This document shows positions 7,730 to 25,516 of a stretch of DNA of 64,000 nucleotides, piece by piece (positions within the stretch are counted from its first letter, which is position 1; each line of letters starts with the position of its first letter). The stretch is from Sinosporangium album (GTDB lineage: Bacteria; Actinomycetota; Actinomycetes; Streptosporangiales; Streptosporangiaceae). The notes beneath the pieces are model-generated. The model made no database searches and was not told where the DNA came from. It saw only the letters and a program-made list of their open reading frames with translations. The stretch is taken from positions 248,001 to 312,000 of the forward strand of contig NZ_FNCN01000001.1 of NCBI RefSeq assembly GCF_900100605.1, written 5' to 3'. A program made the position numbers and the translations under genes.

Positions 7730-7733
7730 CCAT

Positions 7734-10283: not shown

Positions 10284-10302
10284 GGGACTCCTCTGCGAAA
10301 AT

Positions 10303-10359
10303 TAAACGGCGTGGCCCGCCGCTTCTGTTCCGGTAGGATACGGAGACCCCCGCCGTTTA
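10303..10359. promoter_or_regulatory. Inverted repeat in the divergent nmrA-like/tetR promoter region
   Basis: TAAACGGCG at 10303-10311 and its exact complement CGCCGTTTA at 10351-10359 flank the centre of the intergenic region. Between them lies TAGGAT (10335-10340), a plausible -10 for the TetR gene, with TATCCT on the other strand. The arms are likely half-sites or paired operators for the adjacent TetR protein, giving autoregulation and control of the oxidoreductase. Confidence 0.5.
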
Positions 10360-10380
10360 GCAATTCCTGAGGTGAAGCCC

Positions 10381-10932
10381 ATGCGCGCCGACGCCCAGCG
10401 CAACTACGCGCGCCTCCTGGCCGTGGCCGAAGCGGAGATTGCGGTGAACGGCGCCGACGCGTCGCTGGAACAGATCGCCCGCATCGCGGGCGTCGGATCG
10501 GGCACGGTACGCCGCCACTTCCCCACCCGGCACGCCCTGCTGGCAGCCGTCTTCCGCGACCGCGTCGAGACCCTCTGCGCGCACGCCCGCGACCGGCTCG
10601 GCCGCCCCGACACCCGGGGGGCGCTGCTGGAGTGGCTGGGCGCGGTGACCACATCGGCCGCGACGATCCGCGGGCTGGCCATGGCCCTCAACCGCGACCG
10701 GACGGCCGACGCCGAACACGAACACTGCGCCACCACGCAGCTCACCGAGGCGGGCGAGCCGCTGGTCCGTCAGGCCGCGGACGACCTGGCCCCCGGCGTC
10801 ACCGTCACCGACCTGCTCGCCCTGATCACCGGCATCGCCCTGGCCACCGAGACCCATCCCGACCCCGCCGCCGAGGCCAATCGCCTCCTCGACCTGGCGA
10901 TCACGGGACTCAGCCCGATCAGGCGGCTGTGA
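10381..10932 (+). CDS. TetR-family transcriptional regulator
   Basis: The 183-residue protein has an N-terminal TetR helix-turn-helix (about 8-55; NYARLLAVAEAEI, ASLEQIARIAGVGSGTVRRH, FPTRHALLAAVF) and an all-helical ligand/dimer domain. ATG 10381 is preferred over the in-frame GTG at 10372 because GAGG lies 8 nt before it and MRADAQRN is a common start in the family. It is divergent from the NmrA-like oxidoreductase and is the likely repressor of both genes. Confidence 0.88.
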   Translation: MRADAQRNYARLLAVAEAEIAVNGADASLEQIARIAGVGSGTVRRHFPTRHALLAAVFRDRVETLCAHARDRLGRPDTRGALLEWLGAVTTSAATIRGLAMALNRDRTADAEHEHCATTQLTEAGEPLVRQAADDLAPGVTVTDLLALITGIALATETHPDPAAEANRLLDLAITGLSPIRRL

Positions 10933-11028
10933 TCCGCGCGGAGAAGGCCTTGAGGACGGCCGGCAGCCGGTCGACGTGTTCGTCGGCGCTGCTGACCCGA
11001 TCGAGGGCGTGCACCGCGCCGCGTCATC

Positions 11029-11072
11029 GACCGGCGCGGCACCGTGATTCCGCCACCATGGCTGTCCTGCTC
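11029..11072. repeat. Imperfect direct repeat, copy 2
   Basis: This segment matches 9242-9286, with the same core CGTGATTCCGCCA and the same RDSA-type reading (RHRDSATMAVLL) before a stop. It lies downstream of the TetR gene, so the two copies bracket that gene and the NmrA-like gene. It could be recombinase debris, an old target duplication or a segmental duplication. Confidence 0.45.
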
Positions 11073-11126
11073 TGAACCGGTACGGCAGAGCCGTGTCTGA
11101 ATTGCCCGCAACGCTCACGCAACCCT

Positions 11127-11153
11127 CAATTGCGTAGGTTTGCGCGCAATTGC
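11127..11153. promoter_or_regulatory. CAATTGCG/GCAATTGC operator-like sites upstream of the small partner gene
   Basis: CAATTGCG occurs at 11127-11134 and the 8-bp palindrome GCAATTGC at 11146-11153, 33 nt before the ATG at 11186. The same palindrome occurs at 12504-12511 before the other small gene flanking the XRE regulator. That arrangement suggests a binding site for the regulator. Confidence 0.4.
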
Positions 11154-11185
11154 ACGATGGTTACGGACACGGGGAAGGAACCACC

Positions 11186-11392
11186 ATGCGCTTGCGCTTT
11201 CTCGCCTCCACCTCCGAGGCGGGCGCGTGCCCCTCGCTCTACGAGACCGACCGGGGCACCATCGTCGTCCAAGGGCTGCACGTCACCGACCCGAAGGCCC
11301 TGGCCGACCTCCGCGACGTCCTCGACGGCGAGGCCGCCGTCGAGGTGCCGCGCGAACTGCTGGTCGACATCGCCAGACGGGTGCTCAACTGA
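11186..11392 (+). CDS. Small XRE-associated hypothetical protein, 68 residues
   Basis: The protein (LYETDRGTIVVQGLHVTD near the middle, VEVPRELLVDI near the end) resembles a small family found beside DUF5753-type XRE regulators in actinomycetes. The function of the family is not established. There is no signal peptide or membrane span. ATG 11186 is chosen for AAGGAA 7 nt upstream. It precedes the XRE gene at 11631 in the same direction, with a 238-nt gap in which I see no further gene. Confidence 0.7.
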   Translation: MRLRFLASTSEAGACPSLYETDRGTIVVQGLHVTDPKALADLRDVLDGEAAVEVPRELLVDIARRVLN

Positions 11393-11630
11393 CCTCTGAC
11401 ACGCCCGGGTGCCGGCCGAAGGCCGCAGTTTCGGCCGGCACCCTGAGGGTAGGCTCCGAGGTTGATCACGATTGCGGGCCCTGCATGGCCCTCGACCGGG
11501 CAGGCGACTAGCCTCGTCGAGGCCATGCTCCTCGGGACCCGGTGCCGCGGCGCCGGGCGCCGGGCGCGCGAGCGGGCACGGCACCACATTCCGGCACCCG
11601 GACACGCGGTCGCGCGACGCGGAGGAAGTC

Positions 11631-12476
11631 GTGAGCAGCTTTCAGCAGGCCAGGCTCGACCTCGCTACGCGGCTGCGGCGCCTGCGTGAACACGCCCGCC
11701 TCACCGGCAAGGAGCTCGCCGAGCGCATGGCGTGGCAGCCCTCCAAGGTGTCCCGCATCGAGAACGCCCGCCAGAACGCGACCGAGGCGGATGTGGCCGC
11801 GTGGGCTCACGCCGTACAGGCCGACGAGGCCGTGGCGGGCGAGCTGATCGCGTTGGCCGCGGGGCTGCACGAGCAGTCGGACTCGTGGCGGCACCGGCAG
11901 CGGGCGGGACTGGCCGTGCTCCAGGAGAACATCCGCGACGTGGAGGGACGCACCCGGCTGTTCCGGGTGTTCGAGCCCGGCCTGGTCATCGGGCTCCTTC
12001 AGACGGCGGAATACGCCCGGCACATCTTCTCCAAGGTCAAACGGGTGAGAAGCGAGCCCGATGAGGTCGACGCGGCGATCCGGGTGCGCATGCAGCGGCA
12101 GGAGATCCTGTACGACCGTTCGCGCACGTTCCGTTTTCTCATGCCGGAGGCGGTGCTTTACTACCGGCTCGCCCCTACCGATGTGATGTTGGGGCAGCTC
12201 GACCGGTTGCTCGCGGTCGGCACGCTGGCCAATGTGGAGTTCGGGATCATCCCCTTCCAGACGGAGCTGCCCGCCGCCCCGGTCGACGGCTTCTGGATCT
12301 ACGATGACGATCTCGTGAGCGTGCCGACGCGCACCAAGGATCTGATGCTGCGCGACGCGGAGGATGTGGGCTTCTATTCGCAGGCGTTCGAGGAGCTGAG
12401 AAGGGCCGCGGTGTTCGGGGAGGACGCCCGCGCGATCGTGGTCCGCGTGCTCGCCTGCCTTACCGAGCAGGGATAG
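11631..12476 (+). CDS. XRE-family regulator with DUF5753 domain
   Basis: This 281-residue protein has an N-terminal HTH (about 7-65; RLRRLREHARLTGKELAERM, WQPSKVSRIENARQN) and a DUF5753 domain in which the characteristic FEPGLVIGLLQTAEYAR (near 115-131), VRMQRQEIL and FLMPEAVLYYR segments are visible. DUF5753 proteins partner with small downstream genes and regulate development or antibiotic functions in Streptomyces. GTG 11631 has GGAGG 5 nt upstream. Two small genes flank it in the same direction, and each is preceded by a GCAATTGC palindrome, a candidate operator. Confidence 0.9.
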   Translation: MSSFQQARLDLATRLRRLREHARLTGKELAERMAWQPSKVSRIENARQNATEADVAAWAHAVQADEAVAGELIALAAGLHEQSDSWRHRQRAGLAVLQENIRDVEGRTRLFRVFEPGLVIGLLQTAEYARHIFSKVKRVRSEPDEVDAAIRVRMQRQEILYDRSRTFRFLMPEAVLYYRLAPTDVMLGQLDRLLAVGTLANVEFGIIPFQTELPAAPVDGFWIYDDDLVSVPTRTKDLMLRDAEDVGFYSQAFEELRRAAVFGEDARAIVVRVLACLTEQG

Positions 12477-12503
12477 GTGCGGGCAATCGGCGGCCCAACT
12501 CCC

Positions 12504-12511
12504 GCAATTGC
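12504..12511. promoter_or_regulatory. GCAATTGC palindrome upstream of the second small partner gene
   Basis: This 8-bp palindrome is identical to the one at 11146-11153 and lies 61 nt before the ATG at 12573. It is a likely binding site of the intervening XRE regulator. Confidence 0.4.
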
Positions 12512-12572
12512 TTGCCTGCCACGTCAAGATCGTGCAATCCTGTCGCGAGTCCTGACGCGGAGGTGACGCACG

Positions 12573-12836
12573 ATGCCGGACACCGGGTCCTTTCTCTCGC
12601 TGTTCGCCGCCGCCGCGCGGCAGCACGCCGACCTGTCGGTCGACGCCGTCGCCCTCAGCAGCGAACCGGCATACGTGAGCGTGAGCAACCGGTTCAGCAA
12701 CACGCTGAGCGAGACGGTGACCTGCTGCCCGGAGGGCAATTTCCTCACCTCGTGGGGTTACCGGCTGGGCGACGTCGCCAACATCGACGACGCCGCCTCC
12801 CGCTTGGCCTACCTGCTGGCCGCTCTGCCGCACTGA
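12573..12836 (+). CDS. Small XRE-associated hypothetical protein, 87 residues
   Basis: The 87-residue protein (LSLFAAAARQHADLSVDAV, then AYVSVSNRFSNTLSETVT, FLTSWGYRLGDV) looks like one of the small partners that accompany DUF5753 regulators. I do not know a biochemical role. It is probably cytoplasmic. GGAGG lies about 10 nt before the ATG. It starts 97 nt after the XRE stop and has its own GCAATTGC site. Confidence 0.68.
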   Translation: MPDTGSFLSLFAAAARQHADLSVDAVALSSEPAYVSVSNRFSNTLSETVTCCPEGNFLTSWGYRLGDVANIDDAASRLAYLLAALPH

Positions 12837-12879
12837 GGCACCGCGCCGCACTGCGGCCCAGGCGATCCTGAGATCGCGC

Positions 12880-13515
12880 TCAAGCGGGGAACGCGCCCGG
12901 GTCGATGCCGGCCTCGCGGGCGGCGGCTATGCGGGCGTGCTCAAGCAGGCGGGCCCGCGACAGAGCCGACGGGTGCAGCGTGTAACGCACGATGAGGCCG
13001 TCGAGCATCGCGTCGAGGCGTTCGGCCGCCCCCGCCGGGTCGTCGCACGTGAAGTCTCCCGACGCCGCACCGTGCCGCAGCACCCGCTCGACCGCGGCCG
13101 ACCACGCGGCCTCCAGTTCGAGCACGATCTCGCGGATGGCGGGCTCGCGCACCGCGGAGGTCCACGCGTCGATCCACAGGATCCAGCTCTGGTCGGACCG
13201 CGACTCGGGGATGTAGAACCTGAGCAGCCGGTCGAGGCGCTCCACCGGGCCGCCCGGCCCCTCGGTGAGCTCGGCCAGCCGGGCGCTCTCCTGGTCGAGG
13301 GTGGCCCGGAGCATGGCCGTGATCAGCTCGTCCTTGGTGGCGAAGTGGTAGTGGATCAGACCGCCGCTGACGCCGGTGGCCTTGGCGATGTCGGCCACCC
13401 TGGTGCCGGCCAGCCCCTTGTCGAGCACGACTCTGCGGGCCGCGTCGAGCAGCTCGGCCCTGCGCTGATCGGCCTGGTCGGCCCGGCTGCTCCGGGACCT
13501 CTCCGCACTCCGCAC
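12880..13515 (-). CDS. TetR-family regulator, BetI/AcrR-like
   Basis: The 211-residue protein has a TetR HTH at about 16-65 (RRAELLDAARRVVLDKGLAG, IAKATGVSGGLIHYH, FATKDELITAML) and a C-terminal domain with the BetI-like pattern WILWIDAWTSAVREP. GTG at 13515 is the start used; ribosome-site evidence is weak. It lies directly downstream, on the same strand, of the remnant oxidoreductase C-terminus (13578-13661), so it was probably once co-transcribed with that gene. Confidence 0.87.
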   Translation of the reverse strand: MRSAERSRSSRADQADQRRAELLDAARRVVLDKGLAGTRVADIAKATGVSGGLIHYHFATKDELITAMLRATLDQESARLAELTEGPGGPVERLDRLLRFYIPESRSDQSWILWIDAWTSAVREPAIREIVLELEAAWSAAVERVLRHGAASGDFTCDDPAGAAERLDAMLDGLIVRYTLHPSALSRARLLEHARIAAAREAGIDPGAFPA

Positions 13516-13539
13516 TCACCGAGGATACAGAGCGGCGCG

Positions 13540-13557
13540 GACACTGTAGACACTGTG
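13540..13557. promoter_or_regulatory. Tandem 9-nt repeat upstream of the TetR gene
   Basis: GACACTGTA (13540-13548) and GACACTGTG (13549-13557) lie 25 nt upstream of the TetR start. The direct repeat could be an operator for the adjacent regulator. No other support is visible. Confidence 0.3.
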
Positions 13558-13577
13558 GACGCTGACGACCGCAGTTG

Positions 13578-13661
13578 TCAGGCGCGCCGGAGTACGGCCA
13601 TCGCCGCGTTGTGGCCCGGTATCCCGCTGGCCCCGCCGCCGCGTTCGTGGAGGGGGGAACA
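13578..13661 (-). pseudogene. C-terminal remnant of a phytoene-desaturase-like FAD oxidoreductase
   Basis: The minus-strand frame ending at 13578 reads ERGGGASGIPGHNAAMAVL followed by four residues and a stop. This GGGxSGIPGHNAAMAVL signature is the usual last segment of phytoene-desaturase-family oxidoreductases, where it contacts FAD. No catalytic body precedes it. The matching N-terminus of such an enzyme, also on the minus strand, occurs at 21240-21377, on the far side of the lanthipeptide cluster. The two pieces are probably the ends of one broken gene. Confidence 0.55.
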
Positions 13662-13747
13662 AGACCGTTTCCCTACGGGCGGCGGTGGCTGGCGTTGGTA
13701 TGTCCCGACCGCACATAACGAACAGGTGTGTCCGGGGCATGGCTCGC

Positions 13748-14075
13748 TCTTGACATCCTCCCCTCCCTGAAGGGAGGGGATTCCCACGGTCGCCCGTGAG
13801 GGTTCCTGCTTCACCGCCAGCCGCCCGCCAGGAGGGATCCCCCTTGAGGTCTTACACCGGCTCCACAGGCGTTTCACCTCTCCGCCAGCCCGGCGGCGAG
13901 GATGTTCTTCGCTGCGTTGAGACTCCCCGCATCATATCGCACGATCGGTCAAGACTCGTGCGTGTGTTCGTACGGCGTTCCGCCTGGCGGCGGAACGCCT
14001 GCCCCTGCCCTGCTCCCGCAGGGGGTCCGATTCCTCCCCCGCCTGAAGGCGGGGGTTTCCTCGAAGGTTCCTGAT
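13748..14075. mobile_element. Relic of an IS200/IS605-family element (internal deletion derivative)
   Basis: On the minus strand, 13924-13874 encodes SLNAAKNILAAGLAER and a stop, the typical last residues of TnpB. The rest of the transposase is missing. The sequence downstream of that stop ends in a hairpin with a 9-bp stem and GA loop (arms 13760-13768 and 13771-13779). A second hairpin of the same design, a 9-bp stem around CCTGAAGG, lies at 14036-14055. An 11-bp hairpin occupies 13974-13999. Subterminal hairpins are what TnpA of this family recognises. The region looks like both element ends plus the TnpB tail. It overlaps the 3' end of the lanthipeptide gene at 13949. Confidence 0.65.
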
Positions 14076-14875
14076 GAGAGATTCTGGCTCCCAGACGTTG
14101 CCGTTGGTTGCTCGCAGGGGCCCTTGTCGTCGGAGAGGGTTCCGAGAGTGGCTTGGGCGGCGGCGCGGGCGAGGGTGGCTTGGGTTGTGACGGCGAGGCC
14201 CATGCGGTTCCAGTGGAAGATGACGTGTAGGGCGATTACCGCGCGGATGCCTCGGGTGAGGCGGCCGTTCTCGCGTAGTTCTCGGAGTGTGGTGCCGGTG
14301 TCCTCGAAGGAGGTGAGCCAGTCATTGCCGATGAGGTCGGCGCGGGCGCGGCCGAGGAGGAGCAGGCGGACGTCGCAGGTGTAGGACGCCCATTCCTGAG
14401 GGGTCGGTGGTTCGGCTGCCAGGGGGGCGCGTTGTTCGGCGATTCTGGCCCAGACGTCGCCTTGTTCGTTGAAGTCGAGTCCTGCCGCGCGCATGAGGGC
14501 CGCGCTGAGGAGAAGTGATCGTTCTTGCCGGTCGTCGGGGTTGTCGGCTAGGTAGGCGAGTAGGTGGCGGCTGTCGTGGTGGAAGAGGGTATGCGCCGCG
14601 TCCATGCTGTGGGTGCCGCCGAAGGCGTGGACCTCGGGTTCGTAGATGTCGGTGGTCCAGGCGTGCTTGTCGGTGAAGATGTTCTGTGTGGGGTGGGGTG
14701 GGCCGAGATAGCGGATGCGCCAGCGGCCTTTCCGGATGAACCACCAAGAGGTGATACCGGTGGTCTCGGCTTCGGGTAGCACGTTGGACAGGTGCTGGAC
14801 GGCAGCGCGTTCGCGTTCGCGTGCGGTGTTGCCGGGATAGGTGATGTTCACCTGCTTCCAGAGTGTCTCGTCCAC
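13949..14875 (-). CDS. Thiopeptide-type bacteriocin biosynthesis protein (stand-alone LanB C-domain-like)
   Basis: The 308-residue protein resembles the elimination domain of split lantibiotic dehydratases: SWWFIRKGRWRIRYL near 35-50, a middle region with FFHHDSRH-like HDSRHLLAYLAD, and HVIFHWNRMGLAVTTQATLA near 225-245. In this family it removes glutamate from Glu-activated Ser/Thr to give dehydro-residues. Here the LanB already has its own such domain, so its role may be accessory. GTG 14875 lies 14 nt after the lanC stop and has GAAGGA 7 nt upstream. About the last 40 residues (Arg/Pro/Gly-rich) are encoded inside the IS relic and are unlikely to be native. Confidence 0.8.
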   Translation of the reverse strand: MDETLWKQVNITYPGNTARERERAAVQHLSNVLPEAETTGITSWWFIRKGRWRIRYLGPPHPTQNIFTDKHAWTTDIYEPEVHAFGGTHSMDAAHTLFHHDSRHLLAYLADNPDDRQERSLLLSAALMRAAGLDFNEQGDVWARIAEQRAPLAAEPPTPQEWASYTCDVRLLLLGRARADLIGNDWLTSFEDTGTTLRELRENGRLTRGIRAVIALHVIFHWNRMGLAVTTQATLARAAAQATLGTLSDDKGPCEQPTATSGSQNLSSGTFEETPAFRRGRNRTPCGSRAGAGVPPPGGTPYEHTHES

Positions 14876-14889
14876 GCTCGTTCCTTCAG

Positions 14890-15966
14890 TCAGCAAAGCA
14901 GGAGGCAGGCGTCCCATGCGGTCGTCGTCTCGGTCGTCGCCAGGGCAGCGCCCGCCCTGCCTTCGAGCAGCCCGGCGGGTTCGTCTGGCGGGGAGATGAT
15001 CGAGCGGTGCAGGCAGGCGAGGCGCTCTAGCGGAATTGGGTGGATGGCGTCGGAGGCGATCCGTCGGGCCGTCGTGAGGAGTCCGGCGGTGCCATGGCAC
15101 AGGCTGCGGTCGGTGAGGCGGCTTATCTGGGCAGGGTCGTTCACGCAGGTCGTGAACGCGGTTTCGGCGGCGCGCCGGCGGTCGGGGTCGGCGAGGGCGC
15201 GGGCGGCGAGTTGCTGGGCTCGGGCGATGCCGGGTGTTCCGTAGCACCAGGAGGGGCGGAGTGGGCCGGCCTGGGTGGGGCGGGCGGTTTCGAGGTCGGT
15301 GCGGGTGACGGTTTGGGGCCACCATGCCGCTCCCTCGGCGGTGTGCTGCCGCCAGGCGTCCAGCCAGGTGAGGATGCGCCGGATAGCGTCGGCGTGGCCG
15401 TCGACCTGGGTGCCGTCGAGGTGGGTGAGAGCCAGGAGAGCGAGCGGCCCGGTGATGCCATGGGCGAGCCCGTGGTTGCCGTGGCCGCCTACGGGCGTGG
15501 GCTGGTCCCGGCGGGGGCCGTTGCGGCACCACCAGCCGGGGAGGGCTCCGATGGGTTCGGTGAGGCGTACGAGGTAGATGAGAACGTCGCGGAGCAGGTC
15601 GGTCCGCCCAACCCGGCGCAGGGCGACGCCAAGGCCGGTCAGTCCTCGGATTACGTCGTATTCGGCGTAGTCGGGGCGCTGGTGTTGGTCGATGCGTCGG
15701 TGCGCGGTTTCCAGGCGTCGTCGGGTCACGTCTGCGGTTCCGTTGATAGCGGTGGCCTTGGCGCGGGCGAGGCCGGGGTGGTCGCTGGCGGAAAGGACGA
15801 ACGCGAGGGCGGGGGCACCGTAGTACAGGCTCGCGCCCTCGGCGACGCTCACGCCTTCGGCGACGGCTAGTTCGAGTGCCGCGAACGCGCCCTGGTGATC
15901 GCCGATCGCCAGATGGAGGAGGGCTACTCCGGCTGCTCCGTCGGCGAGAAACTGTTCCGCCGTCAT
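14890..15966 (-). CDS. Lanthipeptide cyclase LanC
   Basis: This 358-residue LanC-type protein has the conserved NHGLAHGITG at about 164-173, WCYGTPG with Cys241, and LCHGTAG with Cys290-His291. These three residues are the zinc ligands known in NisC. The enzyme adds Cys thiols to dehydrated Ser/Thr to form (methyl)lanthionine rings. The start overlaps the lanB stop as ATGA (15963-15966), so the two are translationally coupled. The N-terminus is short compared with NisC (about 415 residues), but the zinc site is complete. Confidence 0.92.
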   Translation of the reverse strand: MTAEQFLADGAAGVALLHLAIGDHQGAFAALELAVAEGVSVAEGASLYYGAPALAFVLSASDHPGLARAKATAINGTADVTRRRLETAHRRIDQHQRPDYAEYDVIRGLTGLGVALRRVGRTDLLRDVLIYLVRLTEPIGALPGWWCRNGPRRDQPTPVGGHGNHGLAHGITGPLALLALTHLDGTQVDGHADAIRRILTWLDAWRQHTAEGAAWWPQTVTRTDLETARPTQAGPLRPSWCYGTPGIARAQQLAARALADPDRRRAAETAFTTCVNDPAQISRLTDRSLCHGTAGLLTTARRIASDAIHPIPLERLACLHRSIISPPDEPAGLLEGRAGAALATTETTTAWDACLLLC

Positions 15967-18680
15967 GACGCTGTCCGAGCGAGGTGGGTAAGGGCGACGG
16001 CACGGGCCAGACGCAAGCAGTGCCGTTCGGAGGCGACGTCCACTCCGATCATGCGGGCGTGGTGCAGGTGCAGCAGATCAGACAGAACCTGGTCGACGTC
16101 CAGGCCGTCAGCCTCGACGAGGGTCCGGTAGGCACCCAGCGCGGTGGAGAGGTCGGCGTCGCCGAACGGGCGACGGGAACGGGTGAGCTGGGCTGGATCG
16201 AGACGTGGCCCGCTGAGGCGGGGTGCGTGCCCGACGAGCCATTCGGGACCGTCGCCGGTGAAGCCGTGGGCGATGGCGAGCATCCCGGCGGCGGTGGCGG
16301 CTTGCCGGTCTCCCGACAGGTGCCGCAGGGCGTTGCGGGAGTCGGCGGCGAAGACCGTCTCGGCCGCGGCAAGGGTCGGGCCGGTTCCGTGGCGGGCCTC
16401 GGGCCGGTAGGTGGTCAGCAGGTAGTCGGTCAAGAGACCCTCGTCATGCAGGCGCTCGGTCCAGGTGGCGAGGTCGTAGGCAGCGTCGGCGAACGAGACG
16501 GTGTGCAGCGGGATGCGGAGCCGCAGGTGGGGTTCGGGGTCGGGGTAACGTAGGAACCACCAGCCGGGAGGGAGACGGGGATGGCTGGTGAGGTGGGTGA
16601 GGATGTCATCGGACCTGCCGAACAAGCGGGCGTCCAGCCACGGGGACCGGCCGGGCCGGTGCTGCAGGACGCTGGCGGGACGACACGGCCGCGCGCGGGA
16701 AACGGTAGGGGGTCGTGTGCGGGCTAGCGTAAGAAGGATCTCGGCAGGTCGTCCATCGGACCACCCCGACGCCCCGGGGGTTTCGGTGAGAACAGCGTTC
16801 GGGTACCGGTCGAGGTGGCTGCGCAGCAGCGCGAGGTGAGCATTCTCATCCAGATCGAGGCGTACCCGTTCGTCATCCTCGCCGAGGAAAACCTCGCGCG
16901 GCAGCCGGTACCGCTCGCGGTATCGGTCCCAACCGGTCTTCCACTCCCGCCACGTCGCTCTCCGGCCAGGGAACGCGGTCGCGGGGACTAGCCAGCGAGC
17001 CGGGTGCAGGATCGACCGTCCGCGCCGCACGCGCGGGAGGAACGGCAGGCGAATGGCGTGGCCCCAGTCGAACCTGGCGCAAGGCGCGAGAAACGCCGTC
17101 CAGATCTCGACGAGGAATCGGACCAGGGGGTGCTGCCCGGTGGGTAGCAGCACGCTGTTGAACAGCAAGGGCTCGACGGGCCGCCCTGTGGTACGCGAGA
17201 CGAGCCACAGCCGGAGGCCGTCTCCGGCAACGGCCAGGTCATCGACCTGCACGGCCGGATCGGGATGAAACTCGCTGACGGGCAGGACGGGAAGCAGCTC
17301 CGGGGCACAGGCGAGAGCAGCGATCCGAAGATTCAGCGGAGGCGCGGCCACCTGGACGGCGTATGCTCCAGGCGACGCGGTCAGCAGCTGTTCATAAACG
17401 CGCCGGAATCGGTCGAGGTCCGCGGGGTCGAGCAGGTGCAGAAACCGAGCGGCGGAAACACCGGCGTGCCGAGCCGCGCTCACAACCGTCAACGTGAACT
17501 TACCGCGATCAAGGTCTTGAACGGTGTCTGCGGCGAGGGTGAACCGGAGTTCGGTGTGCGGGATCGGCACCCGGTCGTCCTCGCCGCGCAGCGCGGCGAT
17601 CGTCTCGTCATCGAGCAGCACCTCGGCCCCGTCGTCCAGCGCGGCTTCCTGCGCGAGGACGAACAGGACGGAGTCTCGCCTCGTATGCGGTACCTGGGAC
17701 CTGCGCCGGGTTGAGGTCCGGTATCCGGCCGGGTAGCCGAGAACCCGGAGGACTTCGCGGGCGGGCACGGCCGCGCCGGGGCCCCATCGTTCGATGAAGG
17801 ACCGGTGGTAATCGGCTGCCCAGGCGAAGCGCGGGGCAACAGCGACAAGCGCGGAAGCCGCGTCCTGCACCTCGCCGACCACGGACGGAGGAAGCGTCAC
17901 CGAACAGTCCAGGCGGAGATCAACAGGTGTCCCGGCGAAATCCTCGGAACGGGCACGGGCCTTGTCGGCATCCGTGGTGATCATTCTCCGTCGGGTGTCC
18001 GTGAGGAGTATCCCTGCGTTCACTAGGCCGGCCAGCAGTACCTCGGCCGCCGCGAGGTCGCCGTCAGGCTCTTTGGCGACGAGTTCGGCCAAGTCGACAA
18101 ATGGGATAGGCGACCGGGCGGCCTCGACTGCGATCGCTGCCGGGCCGGTCAAGTCGACCTCCGCGTCCCAGAGCCGGCCGCCCTCGACGCGAACGCAGGG
18201 TGTCACCCAGGCCCCGCCCCGTACGTACCCGAGTGAACTGGTCACGACCGAAGCGGTGCGCAGGGCAGGGAAGCCATCGGCGGTCCCATGGTGCTCGCGT
18301 GGGTGGGGAACCGCGTGATGTTTCTCATCCCAACAGAACGCGGCGTGCGTGCCAAGGCGGCCTGATGCCACTCCGGCGAAGCGTCCGAACGGGGTCGCCC
18401 GTGTCCTCCACCGCAGTACGTATCGAACCGTCGCCTCGGTCAGACGTCGCAGCCTGCGTGCGTCGACCGTATCGCCGTCCAGTACGCGTGTGATCTGGGC
18501 GCTGAGATCCGGGGAGGCGAGCCCGACGGCTTCCGCGAATTCGGGAAGCGCCCACACGTTCCGCAACCACTCCACCCAGGAGGACGGTCGGTAGCTGGTG
18601 AGGTCAGGCCACGCGGGGAAGGTGAGCCCTTGGGGGTAGGCGGCGGCCCTGATCAACGTTGCGTCGACCGCTTGGAACAT
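15963..18680 (-). CDS. Full-length lantibiotic dehydratase LanB
   Basis: The 905-residue protein carries the tRNA-dependent glutamylation domain (about 1-640; TPFGRFAGVASGRLG near 97-111, FLHLLDPADLDRFRRVYEQL further on, FNSVLLPTGQHPLVRFLVEI). It also has a C-terminal glutamate-elimination domain (about 670-905; PGWWFLRYPDPEPHLRLRIP). In NisB-type enzymes glutamyl-tRNA activates precursor Ser/Thr, which are then dehydrated. ATG 18680 has GGAG 7 nt upstream. The gene lies 81 nt after the precursor, separated by a strong hairpin. Stop overlaps the lanC start (ATGA). Confidence 0.93.
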   Translation of the reverse strand: MFQAVDATLIRAAAYPQGLTFPAWPDLTSYRPSSWVEWLRNVWALPEFAEAVGLASPDLSAQITRVLDGDTVDARRLRRLTEATVRYVLRWRTRATPFGRFAGVASGRLGTHAAFCWDEKHHAVPHPREHHGTADGFPALRTASVVTSSLGYVRGGAWVTPCVRVEGGRLWDAEVDLTGPAAIAVEAARSPIPFVDLAELVAKEPDGDLAAAEVLLAGLVNAGILLTDTRRRMITTDADKARARSEDFAGTPVDLRLDCSVTLPPSVVGEVQDAASALVAVAPRFAWAADYHRSFIERWGPGAAVPAREVLRVLGYPAGYRTSTRRRSQVPHTRRDSVLFVLAQEAALDDGAEVLLDDETIAALRGEDDRVPIPHTELRFTLAADTVQDLDRGKFTLTVVSAARHAGVSAARFLHLLDPADLDRFRRVYEQLLTASPGAYAVQVAAPPLNLRIAALACAPELLPVLPVSEFHPDPAVQVDDLAVAGDGLRLWLVSRTTGRPVEPLLFNSVLLPTGQHPLVRFLVEIWTAFLAPCARFDWGHAIRLPFLPRVRRGRSILHPARWLVPATAFPGRRATWREWKTGWDRYRERYRLPREVFLGEDDERVRLDLDENAHLALLRSHLDRYPNAVLTETPGASGWSDGRPAEILLTLARTRPPTVSRARPCRPASVLQHRPGRSPWLDARLFGRSDDILTHLTSHPRLPPGWWFLRYPDPEPHLRLRIPLHTVSFADAAYDLATWTERLHDEGLLTDYLLTTYRPEARHGTGPTLAAAETVFAADSRNALRHLSGDRQAATAAGMLAIAHGFTGDGPEWLVGHAPRLSGPRLDPAQLTRSRRPFGDADLSTALGAYRTLVEADGLDVDQVLSDLLHLHHARMIGVDVASERHCLRLARAVALTHLARTAS

Positions 18681-18714
18681 GTCTCGCTCCGCGTTCGAAA
18701 GGATGGCGGATGAA

Positions 18715-18743
18715 GGGTCCGGTCGCTGGTGTGGACCGGACCC
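18715..18743 (-). terminator. Hairpin between precursor gene and lanB (partial terminator/processing site)
   Basis: Perfect 10-bp inverted repeat: GGGTCCGGTC at 18715-18724 and GACCGGACCC at 18734-18743, with a 9-nt loop. No T tract follows. In RiPP clusters such hairpins after the precursor gene stabilise the upstream transcript or terminate most polymerases, which gives precursor in excess over enzymes. That role is inferred from position. Confidence 0.6.
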
Positions 18744-18761
18744 TCTCGGACGGTGCGGTGC

Positions 18762-18887
18762 TCAGCCCGAACAGGCGTCGGAGCCGGTGTTGCCGCTGCC
18801 GCAGTTGTCGTCGGTGCTGGTGGCGTAGGCGTTGGCGGCGGGTCCTGCGTCGACCAGGCGCAGGTTCAGCTCGTTCTCGGGGTTCAT
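18762..18887 (-). CDS. FxLD-type lanthipeptide precursor peptide, 41 residues
   Basis: The peptide begins MNPENELNLRLVDAG and ends STDDNCGSGNTGSDACSG. The leader segment LNLRLVDAGP occupies the place of the FxLD motif of this family, but Phe and Asp of the name motif are replaced by Leu and Arg. The core has Cys29 and Cys39, Thr/Ser at 23, 24, 25, 31, 34, 36 and 40, and Asp26-Asp27, so at most two thioether rings can form. The ATG overlaps the stop of the methyltransferase gene (ATGA, 18884-18887). Next comes a hairpin and then lanB. Assignment rests on position and the DDxCGS pattern seen in the family. No transporter or protease gene is in the cluster. Confidence 0.85.
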   Translation of the reverse strand: MNPENELNLRLVDAGPAANAYATSTDDNCGSGNTGSDACSG

Positions 18888-20128
18888 TCGGCATTTCCCT
18901 TCTCATCGGGGGTGAAGGTCAGGACGAGGCGGCTGTGCCGCTTGTCCAGGACCGTTCCGTCCGGCAGGTCGCCGTCCGGTGTGTGCGCGGGAAGGACGTT
19001 CAGGACCGGTGCCGGGCTGCCTGCCTTCAGCCAGGCGCGCACGTGCTCGACCATCCGTCCAGCAGCCGCCTCGGCCTGCGGGCCGTGAGCGTAGGAACCG
19101 AGGTCGAAGAGCTTGCCGGTCCAGGCGAGCGCGGACCGGTAGGCGAACGTGCCGTCCCGAAGGGTGGCGGGGGCGCCGTACTGCCAGGACGGCGCTACGG
19201 TCCCGGCCTCGATGGCTTCACTCTGCGCTGACAGCACCACGAACTCCTCCCGCAGCCGGGCCGCCAGCCAAAGGTCAAGGTCGGACAGCATCGTGCGGGG
19301 CGGCAAGGCCACCCCAGCCCACGCCTCCGCGCGGGGCAGCGCGAGAAGACCTTCGGTGGCGGCGGGGTCGATCCACTGACCCTCGTCCAGCCGCAGGTGA
19401 ACGCCGTCGGCGATGTCGACGTACCGGACCTCGGAGGCCCCGTCACCCTGCATGGACACGAACCCGCACTGGCGGTGGCTGTGGCTCACCATGCGGTTGC
19501 CGTCCCGGCGCAGCGTCCATGAACGGGTCATCCCGAACGTCCGCAACGGCACGATGAGCACGCCGCTATCGGTGAGCTGGTCCCGCCAAGCGGGCGGCAC
19601 GTCCCACGCCCCCACCGTGACGATGATCAAGTCGTAACCGCGGCCCGGCACGACCGGATGCTCGGCGTCCGCGCAGATGACGGTGACATCGTGGTAACCC
19701 GCCGCCGCCAGGCACTTGGAAGCCCGGTCGGTGACGTCCGAGTCGATATCGACGGTCGTGACGGACCCCGCAGGACCGACCAGCTCCCGCAGAAGAGAGG
19801 CGTTGTATCCGCCAGAGCCGATCTCCAGCACCGAACGTCCGGCCAGGCCACCGAGCGCGTCGGCGGCCTGGCCGAGCATCTCGGCGACGAGGAACGGTGC
19901 CGACACCGAGCTGAGGCTCTCCCCGCTGGGCAGCCGTTTGGTGATGACGGCTGTGTTCGCGTACGCCTCCTCCAGCGGAAGACCCGGGGTGAACAGCTCG
20001 CGCGGGACGGTCCGCATGGCCGCCTCCACTTCCGGCCGCAACACCAGGTTCTTCGCCTGATGGTCGGCCGCGAGCCGATCCACCATCGCGTTCCGCAGAT
20101 CCCCACCGCTCATGGTGTCGACACTCAC
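18884..20128 (-). CDS. FxLD-system methyltransferase (protein-L-isoaspartate methyltransferase homologue)
   Basis: The 414-residue protein has a PCMT-like first half: VPRELFTPGL near 41-50, SSVSAPFLVAEML near 73-85 and the SAM motif VLEIGSGGYNASLL at about 100-113. A C-terminal extension of about 200 residues follows, typical of the methyltransferases that accompany FxLD lanthipeptides. Relatives methylate an Asp of the cyclised peptide, which collapses to succinimide and then isoaspartate; Asp26, Asp27 or Asp37 of the precursor are candidates here. GTG 20128 has AGGGGG 8 nt upstream. It is the first gene of the lanthipeptide operon and overlaps the precursor start. Confidence 0.87.
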   Translation of the reverse strand: MSVDTMSGGDLRNAMVDRLAADHQAKNLVLRPEVEAAMRTVPRELFTPGLPLEEAYANTAVITKRLPSGESLSSVSAPFLVAEMLGQAADALGGLAGRSVLEIGSGGYNASLLRELVGPAGSVTTVDIDSDVTDRASKCLAAAGYHDVTVICADAEHPVVPGRGYDLIIVTVGAWDVPPAWRDQLTDSGVLIVPLRTFGMTRSWTLRRDGNRMVSHSHRQCGFVSMQGDGASEVRYVDIADGVHLRLDEGQWIDPAATEGLLALPRAEAWAGVALPPRTMLSDLDLWLAARLREEFVVLSAQSEAIEAGTVAPSWQYGAPATLRDGTFAYRSALAWTGKLFDLGSYAHGPQAEAAAGRMVEHVRAWLKAGSPAPVLNVLPAHTPDGDLPDGTVLDKRHSRLVLTFTPDEKGNAE

Positions 20129-20222
20129 TGGCGTTCCCCCTTTGAAGTCCTCTCCGCCACCGCGATCACCGCCTCGCGCGTGCTCCACCACCCTGCCGCT
20201 ACCCCGCCTCGTGGGCCAGGAA

Positions 20223-20316
20223 TTTAGCTACCTTTAGCAGTGACAGAGCGATGCTCACTTCCCGCCTGGTCAGACAGGAAACCGGATATATAGGACGGTT
20301 GCTAATCACCGCTAAA
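20223..20316. promoter_or_regulatory. Paired TTTAGC operator-like repeats between methyltransferase and XRE genes
   Basis: TTTAGC occurs at 20223-20228 and 20233-20238. In the opposite orientation GCTAAT (20301-20306) and GCTAAA (20311-20316) occur with the same 10-bp period. Each pair puts two half-sites one helical turn apart, and the pairs face each other across the 217-nt divergent promoter region. TATATA-like sequence near 20287 may be a -10. The adjacent DUF5753 XRE protein is the obvious candidate to bind here. Confidence 0.55.
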
Positions 20317-20345
20317 CCAGAGGGCGCGAGCCCGGGGCGGTCGGC

Positions 20346-21398
20346 ATGATGCACGTGATGGCTACCTCGTCCTCCTCCTCCGCCCAGGCCGCCCGCGAGC
20401 GCCTGGGAACACGGCTGCGCGACCTCCGGACCGGTGCGGGGCTGTCCGGTGTGGAGTTCGCGCGACGGGCCGGCTGGTCGGCCTCGGCCGTCGTATCGCA
20501 GGTCGAGAAGGGCCGCCGCACCATCACCGCCGATCACGTGCGGCTGTGGTGCTCGCTGACCAGCGCGTCCCCCGAGCTGACAGCCGAGCTGCTCGCCGAG
20601 CAGGCGAACATGGCGGGCATCTGGCTCTCGCTCCGCGAACAAGCCGGCGGCCTAGGCCTGAACGCCCGCCAGAAGCTCACCATCGGCGACGCGATGTCCC
20701 GCGTGACACTCGTTCGCACCTACCAGACCAAGGTCATCCCGGGGTTGCTGCAGACGCCTGGCTATATGGAGCAGGTTCTGCGTGGTGTCCGCAGCGATCG
20801 CCGTGTAGAACCCGACGACGTCGCCGAAGCTCTCGCTGAACGGCTCGGACGGCAGCGAAATCTGCGTCGCCACGGGGCCCAGTTCATATTCCTCCTGGAA
20901 GAGACCGTTCTGCGGTTCCGCCAGTTCGGTCCGGACGTCCACCGTGAACAGCTCCTCCACCTTCTGGAGGCCATACGGCTGCCAACGGTGTTCTTGGCGG
21001 TCATCCCGATGGACGCCGACCGGCGGGGCGTAAGGCCACGCGAGTCCTTTGACATCTCGACCTTCCCCGACCGCGAACACGTCCAGGTGGAGCTGCTGTC
21101 CGGGCTACTCACCCTCACCCATCCCGACGAACTCGCCATGTACCGGCAGGCATGGGACGCCCTCATGTCCCGCGCCGTTTATGGCGACGGCGTCCGCGGC
21201 CTGATCGGACGGGCCTTGGAGGCTCTTGAGGGGAGGAGATTCGGCGGCGGAGACGGCGAGGCCCCCCACGTGGCCGTGGCGTTCGAGGACCAGCACGCGC
21301 CGGCCCGCCATCGCGAGGTAGGCGGCCGCGACCAGCCCGTTGTGCCCGGCTCCGACGACGACCACGTCATAGCGCACGGTGGGGTCCTCTCTCGTTGA
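20346..21398 (+). CDS. XRE-family regulator with DUF5753 domain, lanthipeptide cluster regulator
   Basis: The HTH lies at about 18-75 ([37 protein letters not shown]), followed by a DUF5753 domain with [19 protein letters not shown] near 125-143 and [14 protein letters not shown]. Such regulators are standard in FxLD loci. The family normally ends near [10 protein letters not shown] (about residue 295). Here the frame continues another 55 residues that are antisense to the oxidoreductase remnant at 21240-21377, so the tail is a junction artefact. Start codon uncertain: ATG at 20346, 20349 or 20358, none with a clear ribosome site. Confidence 0.85.
21240..21377 (-). pseudogene. N-terminal remnant of a phytoene-desaturase-like FAD oxidoreductase
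   Basis: A GTG start at 21377 with GAGAGGA upstream opens a frame reading [20 protein letters not shown] and then [20 protein letters not shown], the ADP-binding beta-alpha-beta unit and following strand of phytoene-desaturase-family enzymes. Similarity ends abruptly near 21240, where the 3' end of the lanthipeptide XRE gene begins. The C-terminal signature of the same family lies at 13578-13661 on the same strand. The gene therefore appears split, with its centre lost. Confidence 0.7.
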
Positions 21399-21751
21399 CC
21401 TTGCCGGCACCTTATAACGAACCAGACAAACGTTACGAGCGATGACGAGCTTCAACGAGATACCCAGAATCCCCCGCGAGGAGTAACCTCCTCAACGAGG
21501 AGCGAACACTTTTCCACTCCGCCCCAGGCGCTCGGCCGTCCGATCCGGGCAGCCGGTCGGGAGACCGCCCTCGCGTCACCCCGCAACCGTGGAACAAAAG
21601 ACGATCTTGCAACGTTCCAACTTGGTGACGTTCCAGGCGACCCATGAGCGTCGCGCGTGGACGTCGAACATGAGCACCGAACATGAGCAGGGAACCAGCA
21701 GGGGCACGGGCAAGGAACAGCAAGGCACGAGTCAGGGAGACGAACCCCCGT
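21399..21751. other. Intergenic region without a recognisable gene
   Basis: This stretch holds the promoter of the broken oxidoreductase on the minus strand and of psuG on the plus strand. Short repeats of the type ACGTTCCA occur near 21610 and 21640. I see no convincing coding frame. Confidence 0.4.
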
Positions 21752-22687
21752 ATGAGCACGACCGGCAGAGCTTCGACCGTGATCCGCCTGTCCGAGGAGG
21801 TGGCGGACGCCCTGGCGCGGGGGCTGCCGGTCGTGGCGCTGGAGTCCACGATCATCTCGCACGGGCTGCCGCAGCCCCGCAATCTGGAGGTGGCGGCCGA
21901 GCTTGAGGAGATCGTACGGCGGGGCGGTGCCGTACCCGCGACGATCGCCGTGCTCGACGGGGTCGCGCGGATCGGGCTCGACCAGGCGGGGCTTGAGCGG
22001 ATCGCGACCCAGCCGGGGCTGCGCAAACTCGGGCAGCGCGACCTGCCGGTGGCGGCGGCGCTGTCGGCCTGCGGCGCGACGACGGTGTCGGCGACCGCGT
22101 TCCTGGCGGCCCGCGCGGGCATCCGGGTGTTCGCGACCGGCGGCCTCGGCGGCGTGCACCGGGGCTTCACCGTGGATCAGGACGAGTCCGCCGATCTCGA
22201 CACGCTGAGCCGCACCCGGATCACGATCGTGTGCGCCGGGGTCAAGTCGATCCTCGACGTGCCCGCCACGCTCCAGCGGCTGGAGACCCGGGGTGTGTCG
22301 GTCGTGGGCTACCGTACCGGCGAGTTCCCCGGGTTCTATGTGCACACGTCGGGGATCCCGATCGACTGGCGCGTCGACTCCCCCGCCGAGGCAGCCGCGA
22401 TCATGAAGGCGCAGGACGCCCTGGGCGGGGCGGAGAGCGCGCTCGTCGTCGCCAATCCGGTGCCGCCGGCCGACCAGCTCGACCCCGAGCTGCACGACCG
22501 GGTGCTCGCCGAGGCGCTGGCCGAGGCGGATCGGCGGCGGATCACCGGCCAGGCGATCACGCCGTTCCTGCTCGACTTCCTGGTGAAGGGCACCGGCGGG
22601 GCCTCCCTGGAGGCCAATCTCACTGCAGTACGCGGAAACGCTGCCATTGCCGCTCAAATCGCTTCATACTGGTCCAAGGAGAACTGA
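21752..22687 (+). CDS. psuG: Pseudouridine-5'-phosphate glycosidase
   Basis: The 311-residue protein shows PsuG (IndA-type) hallmarks: VVALESTIISHGLPQPRNLE near 26-45, VRRGGAVPATIAVLDG near 54-69, GIRVFATGGLGGVHRG near 128-143 and FLLDFLVKGTGGASLEANL near the C-terminus. The enzyme splits pseudouridine 5'-phosphate into uracil and ribose 5-phosphate. A PfkB kinase gene starts 6 nt downstream, which fits the psuK-psuG pathway. ATG 21752 is the first Met before the conserved part. Its ribosome site is weak, and GTG 21779 is an alternative. Confidence 0.93.
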   Translation: MSTTGRASTVIRLSEEVADALARGLPVVALESTIISHGLPQPRNLEVAAELEEIVRRGGAVPATIAVLDGVARIGLDQAGLERIATQPGLRKLGQRDLPVAAALSACGATTVSATAFLAARAGIRVFATGGLGGVHRGFTVDQDESADLDTLSRTRITIVCAGVKSILDVPATLQRLETRGVSVVGYRTGEFPGFYVHTSGIPIDWRVDSPAEAAAIMKAQDALGGAESALVVANPVPPADQLDPELHDRVLAEALAEADRRRITGQAITPFLLDFLVKGTGGASLEANLTAVRGNAAIAAQIASYWSKEN

Positions 22688-22693
22688 GAAGGC

Positions 22694-23635
22694 GTGGCCG
22701 GTATGGGTCTGCTCGTCATCGGCGACGTTGTCACCGACGTCGTCGCGCTTCACGAGGCACCGGTCGCGACCGGCACCGACACCGCAGCCGACATCGTGCT
22801 GCGCCCCGGCGGGTCAGGCGCGAACACCGCGTCGTGGGCCGCCCACCTCGGCGCGGACGCCCGCCTCCTCACGCGCGTCGGCTTCGACACCGGCGAGTGG
22901 CACCAGACCGAACTGCTGCGCGACGGGGTCCGCCCGCACATGCGGATGGATCCGGACCACCCCACCGCCGTCGTCATCGCGATGGTCGACTCCGCTGGAG
23001 AGCGCTCCATGCTCACCAACCGGGGCGCCGGCGGGCTCATCGGCCTCGACGACTGGGCCGACGACCTGCTCGACGACGTGGCCCATCTGCATCTTTCCGG
23101 CTACACGCTGTTCGCCGAACCCGGGCTGCGACTCGCCCGGACGGCGATGGCGGAGGCCGCCGGACGGGGGGTGACGATCAGTGTGGACCCCTCGTCGGTA
23201 GGCTTTCTGCATGAGTTCGGACCCGGGCGATTCCTGCACGAGACCGCCTCAGCCAAACTGATCATCCCGAACCTGGACGAGGCACTGCTGCTCACCGGCG
23301 AGATCACCGCCGAGCGGGCCGCGGTGGCCCTCAGCGAGACGTACGGCACGGCCGCAGTGAAACGCGGCCCGGACGGAGCCCTGCTCGCCAGGGACGGCCG
23401 GGTGACGGCGACCGCGCCCGGCGTCGCCGCCGAGGTCGTGGACTCGACCGGGGCCGGTGACGCCTTCGCCGCGGGGTTCCTGACCGCGCTGCTCGGCGGG
23501 GCCGGGGACGAGGAGGCCCTGGCCTCCGGATGCCGTGCGGGAGCCGATGCGGTGAGCCTCGTAGGAGGCCGTCCGCGCATACGTCGGAGCCCAAGTTTGG
23601 GCTCCAACCAGCTTTACCCACTTGACACTGATTGA
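22694..23635 (+). CDS. psuK: PfkB-family sugar kinase, probable pseudouridine kinase
   Basis: This 313-residue ribokinase-fold protein has the N-terminal signature RPGGSGANTASWAAHLG near 36-52, the anion-hole/catalytic motif DSTGAGDAFAAGFL near 253-266 and KRGPDGALL. In the psuG context it would phosphorylate pseudouridine at O5'. The GTG at 22694 follows GAGAAGG, 6 nt after psuG. The last 15 residues contain a nucleotide hairpin (GGAGCCCAA and TTGGGCTCC, 23586-23605), so the natural end may be shorter in relatives. Substrate is inferred from the neighbour. Confidence 0.82.
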   Translation: MAGMGLLVIGDVVTDVVALHEAPVATGTDTAADIVLRPGGSGANTASWAAHLGADARLLTRVGFDTGEWHQTELLRDGVRPHMRMDPDHPTAVVIAMVDSAGERSMLTNRGAGGLIGLDDWADDLLDDVAHLHLSGYTLFAEPGLRLARTAMAEAAGRGVTISVDPSSVGFLHEFGPGRFLHETASAKLIIPNLDEALLLTGEITAERAAVALSETYGTAAVKRGPDGALLARDGRVTATAPGVAAEVVDSTGAGDAFAAGFLTALLGGAGDEEALASGCRAGADAVSLVGGRPRIRRSPSLGSNQLYPLDTD

Positions 23636-23699
23636 TAACTTGCCGCGTAGGCTGCACCATTAGCCACATGCGTCACTCTGGGGAGGTTGCGGTCCACCG

Positions 23700-25430
23700 A
23701 TGGACGCCGAGTCATCGATCTGCTTGAGCGACCTGGTTCCTGCCTTGCGCTGGAGCCGGCCCCAGCAGGTCGCCGAAGTGCTGGCCGACCCGCGCCTGCC
23801 CGCCGGATGGTGGGCATCCGTGGGGATCTCGCGCGCCCTCGGCGCCGCCGGGATCGACTGGATCTCCGAGCGGCTGGCTCGATTGTGCGTCTCGCGCTGG
23901 GAGCACCTCCCGCTGAGCGATCTGCTCCCCGCGCTGCAAGTGCACACGGTCGACCCCGCCCTGCCCGCCTGGCCCGAGCCCGCCCGGACCATCGTGACCG
24001 GGCTCGGCGGCTGGAGCCGTCTGCGCAGGCTCACGCCCGGCGACCTGTCCTCGGGTGAGCCCGAGGCCGTCGTCGCCGCCGTGTTCCACGAGGTGCTGAG
24101 CCAGATCCCGGCGCAACAGCCCGCACCGGGCGAAGGCGAACAGGCCGGCTCCGCGGAGCAGGCGCAGACCGGGAAGGGGGCGGAGGCCGCCGAGGCCGCG
24201 TCGCCCCCGGCCGAGAAGGCCTCCCCGGTTCTGCCGCTGCCGCGCCGCGAGACGGCCAGGCCCACCCACGAGGTCGAGGTCGTGCACCCCTCGGCGCAGG
24301 CGGGACCCCCCGCCGCGCCGACCGCCCCAGCCCCTGCGCCCGTGCCGCAGCAGACCGTGCCGGCCGCGGAATACCCGCTGGTCGGCCTGGTGGACGGGCT
24401 GTTCCGGTCCTTCCAGGCCCTGGAGCAGGCCGTCGCGATCGAACGGCTCTTCGCCGCCGACCCCGTCAGTCTGCGGGCGCTCGCCCACCGGCTCGGGGTC
24501 GAGCGCGAGCTGCTCTCGATCGCCCAGCGCACCGCCGAGGAGCGGGTGCTCCAGTGGCTGCGCTCCTCCGAGTCGGCCCCCGTCACCGGCCACCTGTTCG
24601 CCCTGAACGAGTGGCTCGGGTCGGCCGCGACGGAGGAACAGCTCATCGCGGCCGACCCCGCGCACCCGATCGAGGTGCCCGTCCTGCGCACGCCGCTGTG
24701 GCGGGTGCTCGTGGCGCTGATGCACGACCGGCGCTTCCAGGACGGCTGGCTCGTCGTGGGCGACCTCGGCAGTCTCCGGGAGCGCACCCGCGCGCTGATC
24801 GCGAACGGCCCGGCCTCCCGCGACGACCTGGCGGAGCTGCTCGGGCGGGAGCTCGGCATCCGGGCGCACTCGGCGGGCGCGTGGCTCGACTCGCAGCCCG
24901 CCGAACAGGGCCCGGCGGGCCCCGGCTCCGCGCCGGGGCAACCGCCCCAGCCGCTGCCCCGCCGTACTCCCGGTGCGAACGGCCACCACCGCAGCGGTCC
25001 GTCCGTGCCGACCCCGGCGGGCATCGACCCCACGGCGGCCCTGGCGACGCTGTCGGCCCTGTCGGGGGCGAACGGCCGCTCGCACATGATGCGCGGCCAG
25101 CGGCCGGGCGCGCCGTCGGTGCCTCCGCCGCTGACCTCCAGCCCTGCGTCCGACCCTCGGCGGTGGCAGCGCATCGAGGTCACCAGCGAGCACCTGCGGG
25201 GCGAGCCGGTGGCCGTGCCCGAGAACTACGCCGCCCAGCTCGGCATGCGGCCCGGCACGCTGCTGTCGGTCACCGGCCCCGGCGACAACGCCGTCGTCCT
25301 GGTCTGGCGCGACCGCCAGCCGGTGTTCGACTCGCTGCAGCCGGTGCTGATGCGTTTGAACGCCCGCCCCGGCGACCAGGTCTACGTGACCGTGGACGGC
25401 TACCGCCTGGACGCGCAGCTCACAAGCTGA
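23700..25430 (+). CDS. Large protein with a sigma-region-4-like helical segment
   Basis: I do not recognise this 576-residue protein as a named family. Residues 1-150 form a helical domain (SDLVPALRWSRPQQVAEVLA). A Pro/Ala/Glu-rich linker follows to about 220. Residues 222-285 look like sigma-70 region 4 (GLVDGLFRSFQALEQAV, then AHRLGVERELLSIAQRTAEE). Another helical part runs to about 400, then a Gly/Pro-rich linker, and the last 90 residues look like a small beta domain (AAQLGMRPGTLLSVTGPGD). There is no membrane span. Some actinomycetes encode similar hypothetical proteins. A DNA- or polymerase-binding role is inference. Confidence 0.7.
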   Translation: MDAESSICLSDLVPALRWSRPQQVAEVLADPRLPAGWWASVGISRALGAAGIDWISERLARLCVSRWEHLPLSDLLPALQVHTVDPALPAWPEPARTIVTGLGGWSRLRRLTPGDLSSGEPEAVVAAVFHEVLSQIPAQQPAPGEGEQAGSAEQAQTGKGAEAAEAASPPAEKASPVLPLPRRETARPTHEVEVVHPSAQAGPPAAPTAPAPAPVPQQTVPAAEYPLVGLVDGLFRSFQALEQAVAIERLFAADPVSLRALAHRLGVERELLSIAQRTAEERVLQWLRSSESAPVTGHLFALNEWLGSAATEEQLIAADPAHPIEVPVLRTPLWRVLVALMHDRRFQDGWLVVGDLGSLRERTRALIANGPASRDDLAELLGRELGIRAHSAGAWLDSQPAEQGPAGPGSAPGQPPQPLPRRTPGANGHHRSGPSVPTPAGIDPTAALATLSALSGANGRSHMMRGQRPGAPSVPPPLTSSPASDPRRWQRIEVTSEHLRGEPVAVPENYAAQLGMRPGTLLSVTGPGDNAVVLVWRDRQPVFDSLQPVLMRLNARPGDQVYVTVDGYRLDAQLTS

Positions 25431-25465
25431 CGCCCGCGCGCGTGACGCGCTGCGGAACGCCGCAA

Positions 25466-25516
25466 GCAACAGCGAAGGCGGCCCCGGTGATCCACTGGGG
25501 CCGCCTTCGCTGTTGC
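25466..25516. terminator. Strong bidirectional terminator hairpin
   Basis: The arms 25466-25485 and 25497-25516 form a perfect 20-bp stem with an 11-nt loop between two convergent genes. Its position suggests it ends transcripts from both sides. Confidence 0.85.

Follow-up and report, generated by a model that had tools for sequence, protein, structure and literature searches.

The locus described here raises the question of how a complete set of lanthipeptide genes came to lie between two short pieces of what looks like one oxidoreductase gene in Sinosporangium album. The window, which is the whole stretch of 64,000 nucleotides that was analysed, sits on contig C50 of an assembly of 7.06 Mb in 97 contigs (G000). 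The reading developed below, which we hold to be very probably correct, is that an acquired cassette integrated into a single-copy oxidoreductase gene, probably by end-joining, and that a small IS200/IS605-type element was inserted separately.

Two ends of one oxidoreductase gene

The N-terminal remnant of an FAD-dependent oxidoreductase gene occupies 21246-21377 (minus strand, 44 codons; PF13450, 9.1e-12) and the C-terminal remnant 13578-13643 (minus strand, 21 codons plus the stop); they stand in order on the same strand, around a complete lanthipeptide cassette. Both match the DNA of G001, the one other representative of the genus in the set of genomes searched, at 83.4% over window positions 21246-21449 and at 83.6% over 13577-13643, and in G001 the two matching stretches lie in the same order on one strand with 1383 bp between them. 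At the protein level, 42 of 49 aligned residues of the N-terminal remnant and 23 of 33 of the C-terminal one are identical to the intact G001 product, and the local score of the C-terminal alignment (95) was reached by none of 2000 shuffles (maximum 47). In G001 the gene is one open frame of 526 codons, counted from the start equivalent to that of the window, from which 44 and 21 codons are kept here while the central 461, or 1383 bp, are absent and replaced by the 7602 bp of 13644-21245. When the intact protein was used as query against the window's own genome, only these two remnants matched and no second copy was found at E <= 0.001. These data confirm that the remnants are the ends of one FAD-dependent oxidoreductase gene, the only copy found, which has been destroyed.

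A first-pass annotation of the window, made from its letters, had proposed such a split gene, with its central part missing, an insertion combined with a deletion and the host gene lost, all of which is borne out by these data. Its fragments of 46 and 28 codons are real and are shortened by DNA homology to 44 and to 21 plus the stop. The name it had given to the gene, a phytoene-desaturase-like gene, is not retained: the intact homologue belongs, by its N-terminal FAD/NAD(P)-binding fold, to the wide superfamily that also includes the phytoene desaturases (CrtI), but scores 35.2 bits against TIGR02734 (crtI_fam), far under the curated cut-off of 238.1, and Pfam places it with FAD-dependent, amine-oxidase-type enzymes.

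The flanks of the insert were compared with 60 genomes, the window's own included, and the locus was fetched from ten relatives in which, among the matches listed, the start of the oxidoreductase gene falls within about 2.5 kb of a PsuG-like gene. The host neighbours in the window are a TetR-family regulator gene on one side (12880-13515, minus strand; PF00440 and PF13977; 86% nucleotide identity in G001) and, on the other, a PsuG-like gene of the Indigoidine_A family (21752-22687, plus strand; 84.9% to the G001 copy, which itself matches PF04227 at 385 bits). In G001 the intact oxidoreductase gene lies between these same neighbours. Its open reading frame spans at least residues 3-523 of the 526 of G001 in nine of the ten relatives fetched, with 69-77% identity to the G001 protein (G001 itself aside). 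In two of the ten relatives (G001 and G009) the TetR gene comes next, at about 0.3 kb or less; it lies several kb from the locus in five others (G028, G005, G033, G027 and G015), and none was found within the stretch fetched from G022, G004 and G031. An empty site, in which uninterrupted genes run directly from the oxidoreductase to the TetR regulator, as the first-pass annotation had suggested looking for, thus exists in G001 and G009, and the insert at this site is known from one genome. In Sphaerisporangium album the oxidoreductase gene adjoins the PsuG-like gene and has an open frame as far as the fetched stretch reaches, to residue 473; a related lanthipeptide cassette is found in that genome on a different contig. 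At four loci (L051, L053, L055 and L056) 5-6 kb separate the oxidoreductase and TetR genes, so that this region varies between genera.

G015, which belongs to another genus, bears on the order of events. Its oxidoreductase gene (L057, 8219-8463) retains only residues 2-27 and 372-427, fused to each other out of frame and without an insert, and has been destroyed independently by internal deletion, for which reason the site seems tolerant of disruption. Because the same gene was lost there by deletion with no insert, the deletion and the insertion in the window may also be separate events. The middle of the oxidoreductase gene could then have been deleted beforehand, with the cassette landing later in the remnant, and the G015 case, which shows that at least one other lineage can do without the gene, speaks for such a course. 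We regard it as possible yet doubtful, since no genome with a matching deletion and without the cassette occurs among the ten loci fetched and since one event accounts for both ends. A single event for the 1383-bp deletion and the insertion is the simpler reading, G015 showing that deletion alone occurs.

The lanthipeptide cassette and its relatives

The insert carries six genes. The XRE/DUF5753 regulator gene (20346-21245, plus strand; PF19054 and PF13560) has lost its last codons and stop, and its frame continues to 21398, into the host remnant. On the minus strand follow an isoaspartyl-type O-methyltransferase of the FxLD system (18884-20191; TIGR04364, 434.1 bits for a cut-off of 320), a lanthipeptide precursor of 41 aa with the core TDDNCGSGNTGSDACSG (18765-18887; TIGR04363, 41.5 bits for a cut-off of 30), a LanB dehydratase of 905 aa with both dehydratase domains (15963-18680; PF04738 at 2e-138, and PF14028), a LanC cyclase of 358 aa (14890-15966; PF05147, 2.6e-33) and a stand-alone elimination-domain protein of thiopeptide type (14074-14875; TIGR03891, 170.1 bits for a cut-off of 48.45). 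The insert is therefore a class I lanthipeptide cassette of the FxLD or isoaspartyl-methyltransferase kind, an assignment based on a LanB with both domains together with LanC, the precursor and the methyltransferase. The literal letters FxLD are absent from the leader of the precursor, which reads ELNLRLVD, and eight of 18 aligned relatives also have LN instead of LD at that place. In the core motif TDDxC, x is N, G or D among 19 precursors (that of the window, which has N, and the 18 aligned relatives), and the remaining core, CGSGNTGS, is nearly invariant among them. The modified product is predicted to be a small peptide that carries thioether bridges, at most two of them given its two Cys, together with an aspartimide or isoaspartate.

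A LanB scan of the GTDB 220 genome collection yielded 21 further cassette loci, in 17 of which the methyltransferase, precursor, LanB, LanC and elimination protein occur in that order; two of the others are cut by a contig end (L083 and L089), one is without the middle part (L084) and one without a precursor match (L086). The nearest is the locus of Actinocorallia sp. API 0066 (L069), which is collinear with window positions 14125-21236 at 85.8% nucleotide identity over 7.1 kb (XRE 89.0%, methyltransferase 87.3%, LanB 85.0%, LanC 88.1% and elimination protein 84.1%). A LanB tree of the window and 17 of the 21 loci (all but L083, L084, L088 and L089) groups the window with API 0066 as a pair, with support of 100/100. 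API 0066 is also the only one of the 21 loci with a close relative of the XRE regulator (91.5% identical protein); a distant one (33.6%) is found at the same position in L079, and further distant relatives occur elsewhere at L069 and L078. Among 100 genomes, the window's own included, long DNA matches to the cassette were found in G007, in G060 and partly in G086.

Between the window and API 0066, dS is 0.27-0.38 and dN 0.04-0.15 for the cassette. For gyrB the two genomes have 78.8% nucleotide identity and a dS of 0.57, and for a second gyrB-family gene 75.9% and 0.58; best matches of 77% were found for window positions 30000-36000 and short matches only for 37000-47000. The cassette being closer than gyrB, vertical descent is hard to argue, and its horizontal acquisition from another actinobacterial lineage is supported by this comparison. 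With positions 20900-22700 as query, API 0066 matches only in the XRE gene (92%) and in three short stretches, and the PsuG/oxidoreductase locus was not seen there. Likewise, comparison of flanking ORFs of the window with those of the 21 loci (up to 6 kb per side, shorter at contig ends) gave a single match, of 36%. Base composition weakly supports a foreign origin, G+C being 68.7% for 14078-21245 versus 69.0% for 5000-13643 and 70.6% for 21246-30000, and GC3 being 79.1-84.6% in four cassette genes versus 85.1-93.4% in four neighbours. Finally, 65 plasmid records match LanB, all below 60% identity, and no record in the plasmid collection has the cassette at close identity.

In the comparison of G000 with G001, four core or flanking genes have a dS of 0.38-0.46; as the cassette's dS to API 0066 is similar to or below these values, the transfer may date from about the time when the two genomes split, or from later. 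Over the five cassette genes tested, dN/dS is about 0.11-0.53, highest for the elimination protein, so that purifying selection is indicated. The cassette is probably functional, because its genes stay open and diverge under such selection.

A comparison of rpoB was set aside, this gene being spread over several contigs in G000 and G001. Two distinct C-terminal parts of rpoB are found on separate contigs of G000 (among C26, C31 and C33), an indication that the genome has two copies of the gene, a situation also seen in Sphaerisporangium album. Elsewhere in the window, positions 43161-44580, which include a reductive-aminase-like gene (43163-44050; PF21761), have an identity of 90% to Sphaerisporangium album and of 83% to G001. 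In both relatives the contig matched is not the one that carries the neighbouring matches, and a mobile or transferred piece of its own is therefore suggested.

The IS200/IS605-type element and the junctions

Next to the last cassette gene lies an element of 324 bp (13750-14073, minus strand) that contains a tnpB tail and has end sequences shared with other copies; it is a non-autonomous element of the IS200/IS605 type. At least 14 other matches were found in the same genome among the best 40 of 193 candidates scored, and all matches of the element-region query there fall in the element or at most 8 bases from it. They include a 323-bp copy of the same structure on contig C28 (94% identical) and a longer copy on contig C40 that encodes a 411-aa TnpB and shares both ends with the window element. 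In all three copies the left end comes after TCAT, and the hairpin pattern of the element occurs five times in the genome and never with the reversed control. The element splits the stop codon of the elimination protein, whose frame now extends to 13949; across the empty site of the element, the restored protein has 267 aa, versus 261 in API 0066, and its closing QNLS-stop falls precisely where the element was inserted, the chance of an accidental stop at that point being roughly one in five. These features support, short of proof, a separate insertion of the element into the stop codon of the elimination-protein gene. The element was also considered as a border of the island and was rejected as such, as 106 bp of non-host DNA separate it from the C-terminal remnant and, once the element is taken out, the last gene of the cassette closes with a stop.

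Those 106 bp (13644-13749) form the part of the insert beyond the element; among 341 genomes of the family, the window's own genome alone matches along them, and a 25-bp match in G001 and a 37-bp match in G255 are taken as chance. At the other end, the match to API 0066 ends at 21236 at the latest and the host match begins at 21246, which leaves at 21230-21245 a junction of 9-16 bp that matches neither API 0066 nor G001, and the right breakpoint falls inside the last codons of the XRE gene.

The first-pass annotation had taken an IS200/IS605 relic beside the left remnant as consistent with transfer; the relic is real, but it lies inside the insert, apparently as a separate insertion, and its reading as a sign of how the cluster moved is not supported. 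That copies of such an element brought the cassette in, or that recombination between two copies did so, appears very improbable. An element of this family does occur near the left end and the filler at the right junction superficially resembles its hairpin arm, so that an IS200/IS605 end was considered there; however, 191 of 490 random segments match equally well, the element lies 106 bp inside the insert, where it breaks the stop codon of the last gene, and the 21 other cassette loci, several of them truncated at contig ends, gave no TnpB match. The repetition of the element in a 97-contig assembly could also raise the suspicion that unrelated contigs were joined through it. Such an artefact is extremely unlikely, as no repeat is seen at the right junction, no piece of the gene beyond the two remnants was found in the genome and the nearest full-length copy of the element is merely 94% identical.

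No direct repeat longer than 8 bp was found at the ends of the insert (13560-13760 compared with 21200-21420; longest shared word of 8 bp), and no integrase, relaxase, transposase or phage gene was found among the family matches of its annotated genes, the tnpB tail being the only trace. The proposal of a mobile biosynthetic island is supported as regards horizontal origin and finds no support as regards a self-moving element. An integrative element, either an ICE or a prophage, from which the integrase has been lost could also leave xenologous genes whose relatives, at least in some cases, lie in unrelated surroundings. This origin seems improbable given that nothing beyond the cassette and its regulator, the element and 106 bp was brought in, with no direct repeats at the ends and no integrase, relaxase or phage gene among the insert families.

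A 12-bp word is common to the end of the API 0066 XRE gene and to the host gene beside the junction, a length reached in two of 1000 random controls. A join of this kind, with its 9-16 bp of filler, is what end-joining with microhomology would produce; the point is tentative, because the donor is not API 0066. The route was most likely the repair of incoming DNA by end-joining or through microhomology, rather than a dedicated integrase. In the preferred reading, a class I lanthipeptide cassette the size of an operon, together with its own XRE regulator, was acquired from another actinobacterial lineage and joined by such repair into the single copy of the oxidoreductase gene. Integration, alone or with later erosion, would have cost the host gene 1383 bp and the XRE gene its last codons, and the non-autonomous element would separately have entered the stop codon of the last cassette gene. 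More speculatively, and on balance unlikely, the cassette may be a minimal transferable unit that spreads among actinobacteria with no integrase and is end-joined, as a fragment of operon size, into dispensable genes, with breakpoints inside its outermost genes or just beyond them.

Comparison with known systems

For class I families I 1-4, Walker et al. 2020 describe a PIMT-type methyltransferase and a conserved core Asp, and separate elimination-domain proteins in some of the clusters (PMC7268733). The window cassette has in common with these clusters (OlvA/OlvB/OlvC/OlvSA) LanB, LanC, the PIMT-type methyltransferase, the stand-alone elimination-domain protein and the conserved core Asp. OlvSA is described as working after OlvB and OlvC (PMC13001092). 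The motif TxDGC, given for most such precursors in PMC10787088, differs from the TDDNC of the window precursor, and the leader differs in having LNLRLVD and not the literal FxLD. The cassette further differs from these clusters by its location within a broken host gene. With the FxLD cassette of API 0066 it shares the same six genes in the same order, but that cassette lies at a different genomic site, in a genome in which the oxidoreductase locus was not found, and has no TnpB match at its locus. The 324-bp element of the window, compared with non-autonomous IS200/IS605 elements of TnpB type, has in common both end sequences, the insertion after TCAT, the right end GATGTCAA, the retained tnpB tail and the existence of other copies in the genome, and differs in having no transposase gene and a length of 324 bp only.

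Narrow literature searches found nothing on an IS200-associated biosynthetic cluster under the stem Streptosporangi- or on TnpB, MITE or IS605 in actinobacteria, and no paper that was on the subject by its title for lanthipeptide insertion at an empty site. The case is well resolved, with a right junction known to 9-16 bp, a same-genus relative in which the site is empty and the loss of the only host-gene copy found. The operon arrived together with its regulator and with hardly any other DNA, and this gives the outline of the unit in which a widespread type of lanthipeptide is transferable. Neither the type of peptide nor the process of horizontal acquisition is new, and the locus is best seen as a clear but unexceptional case in which a known type of cluster has been acquired.
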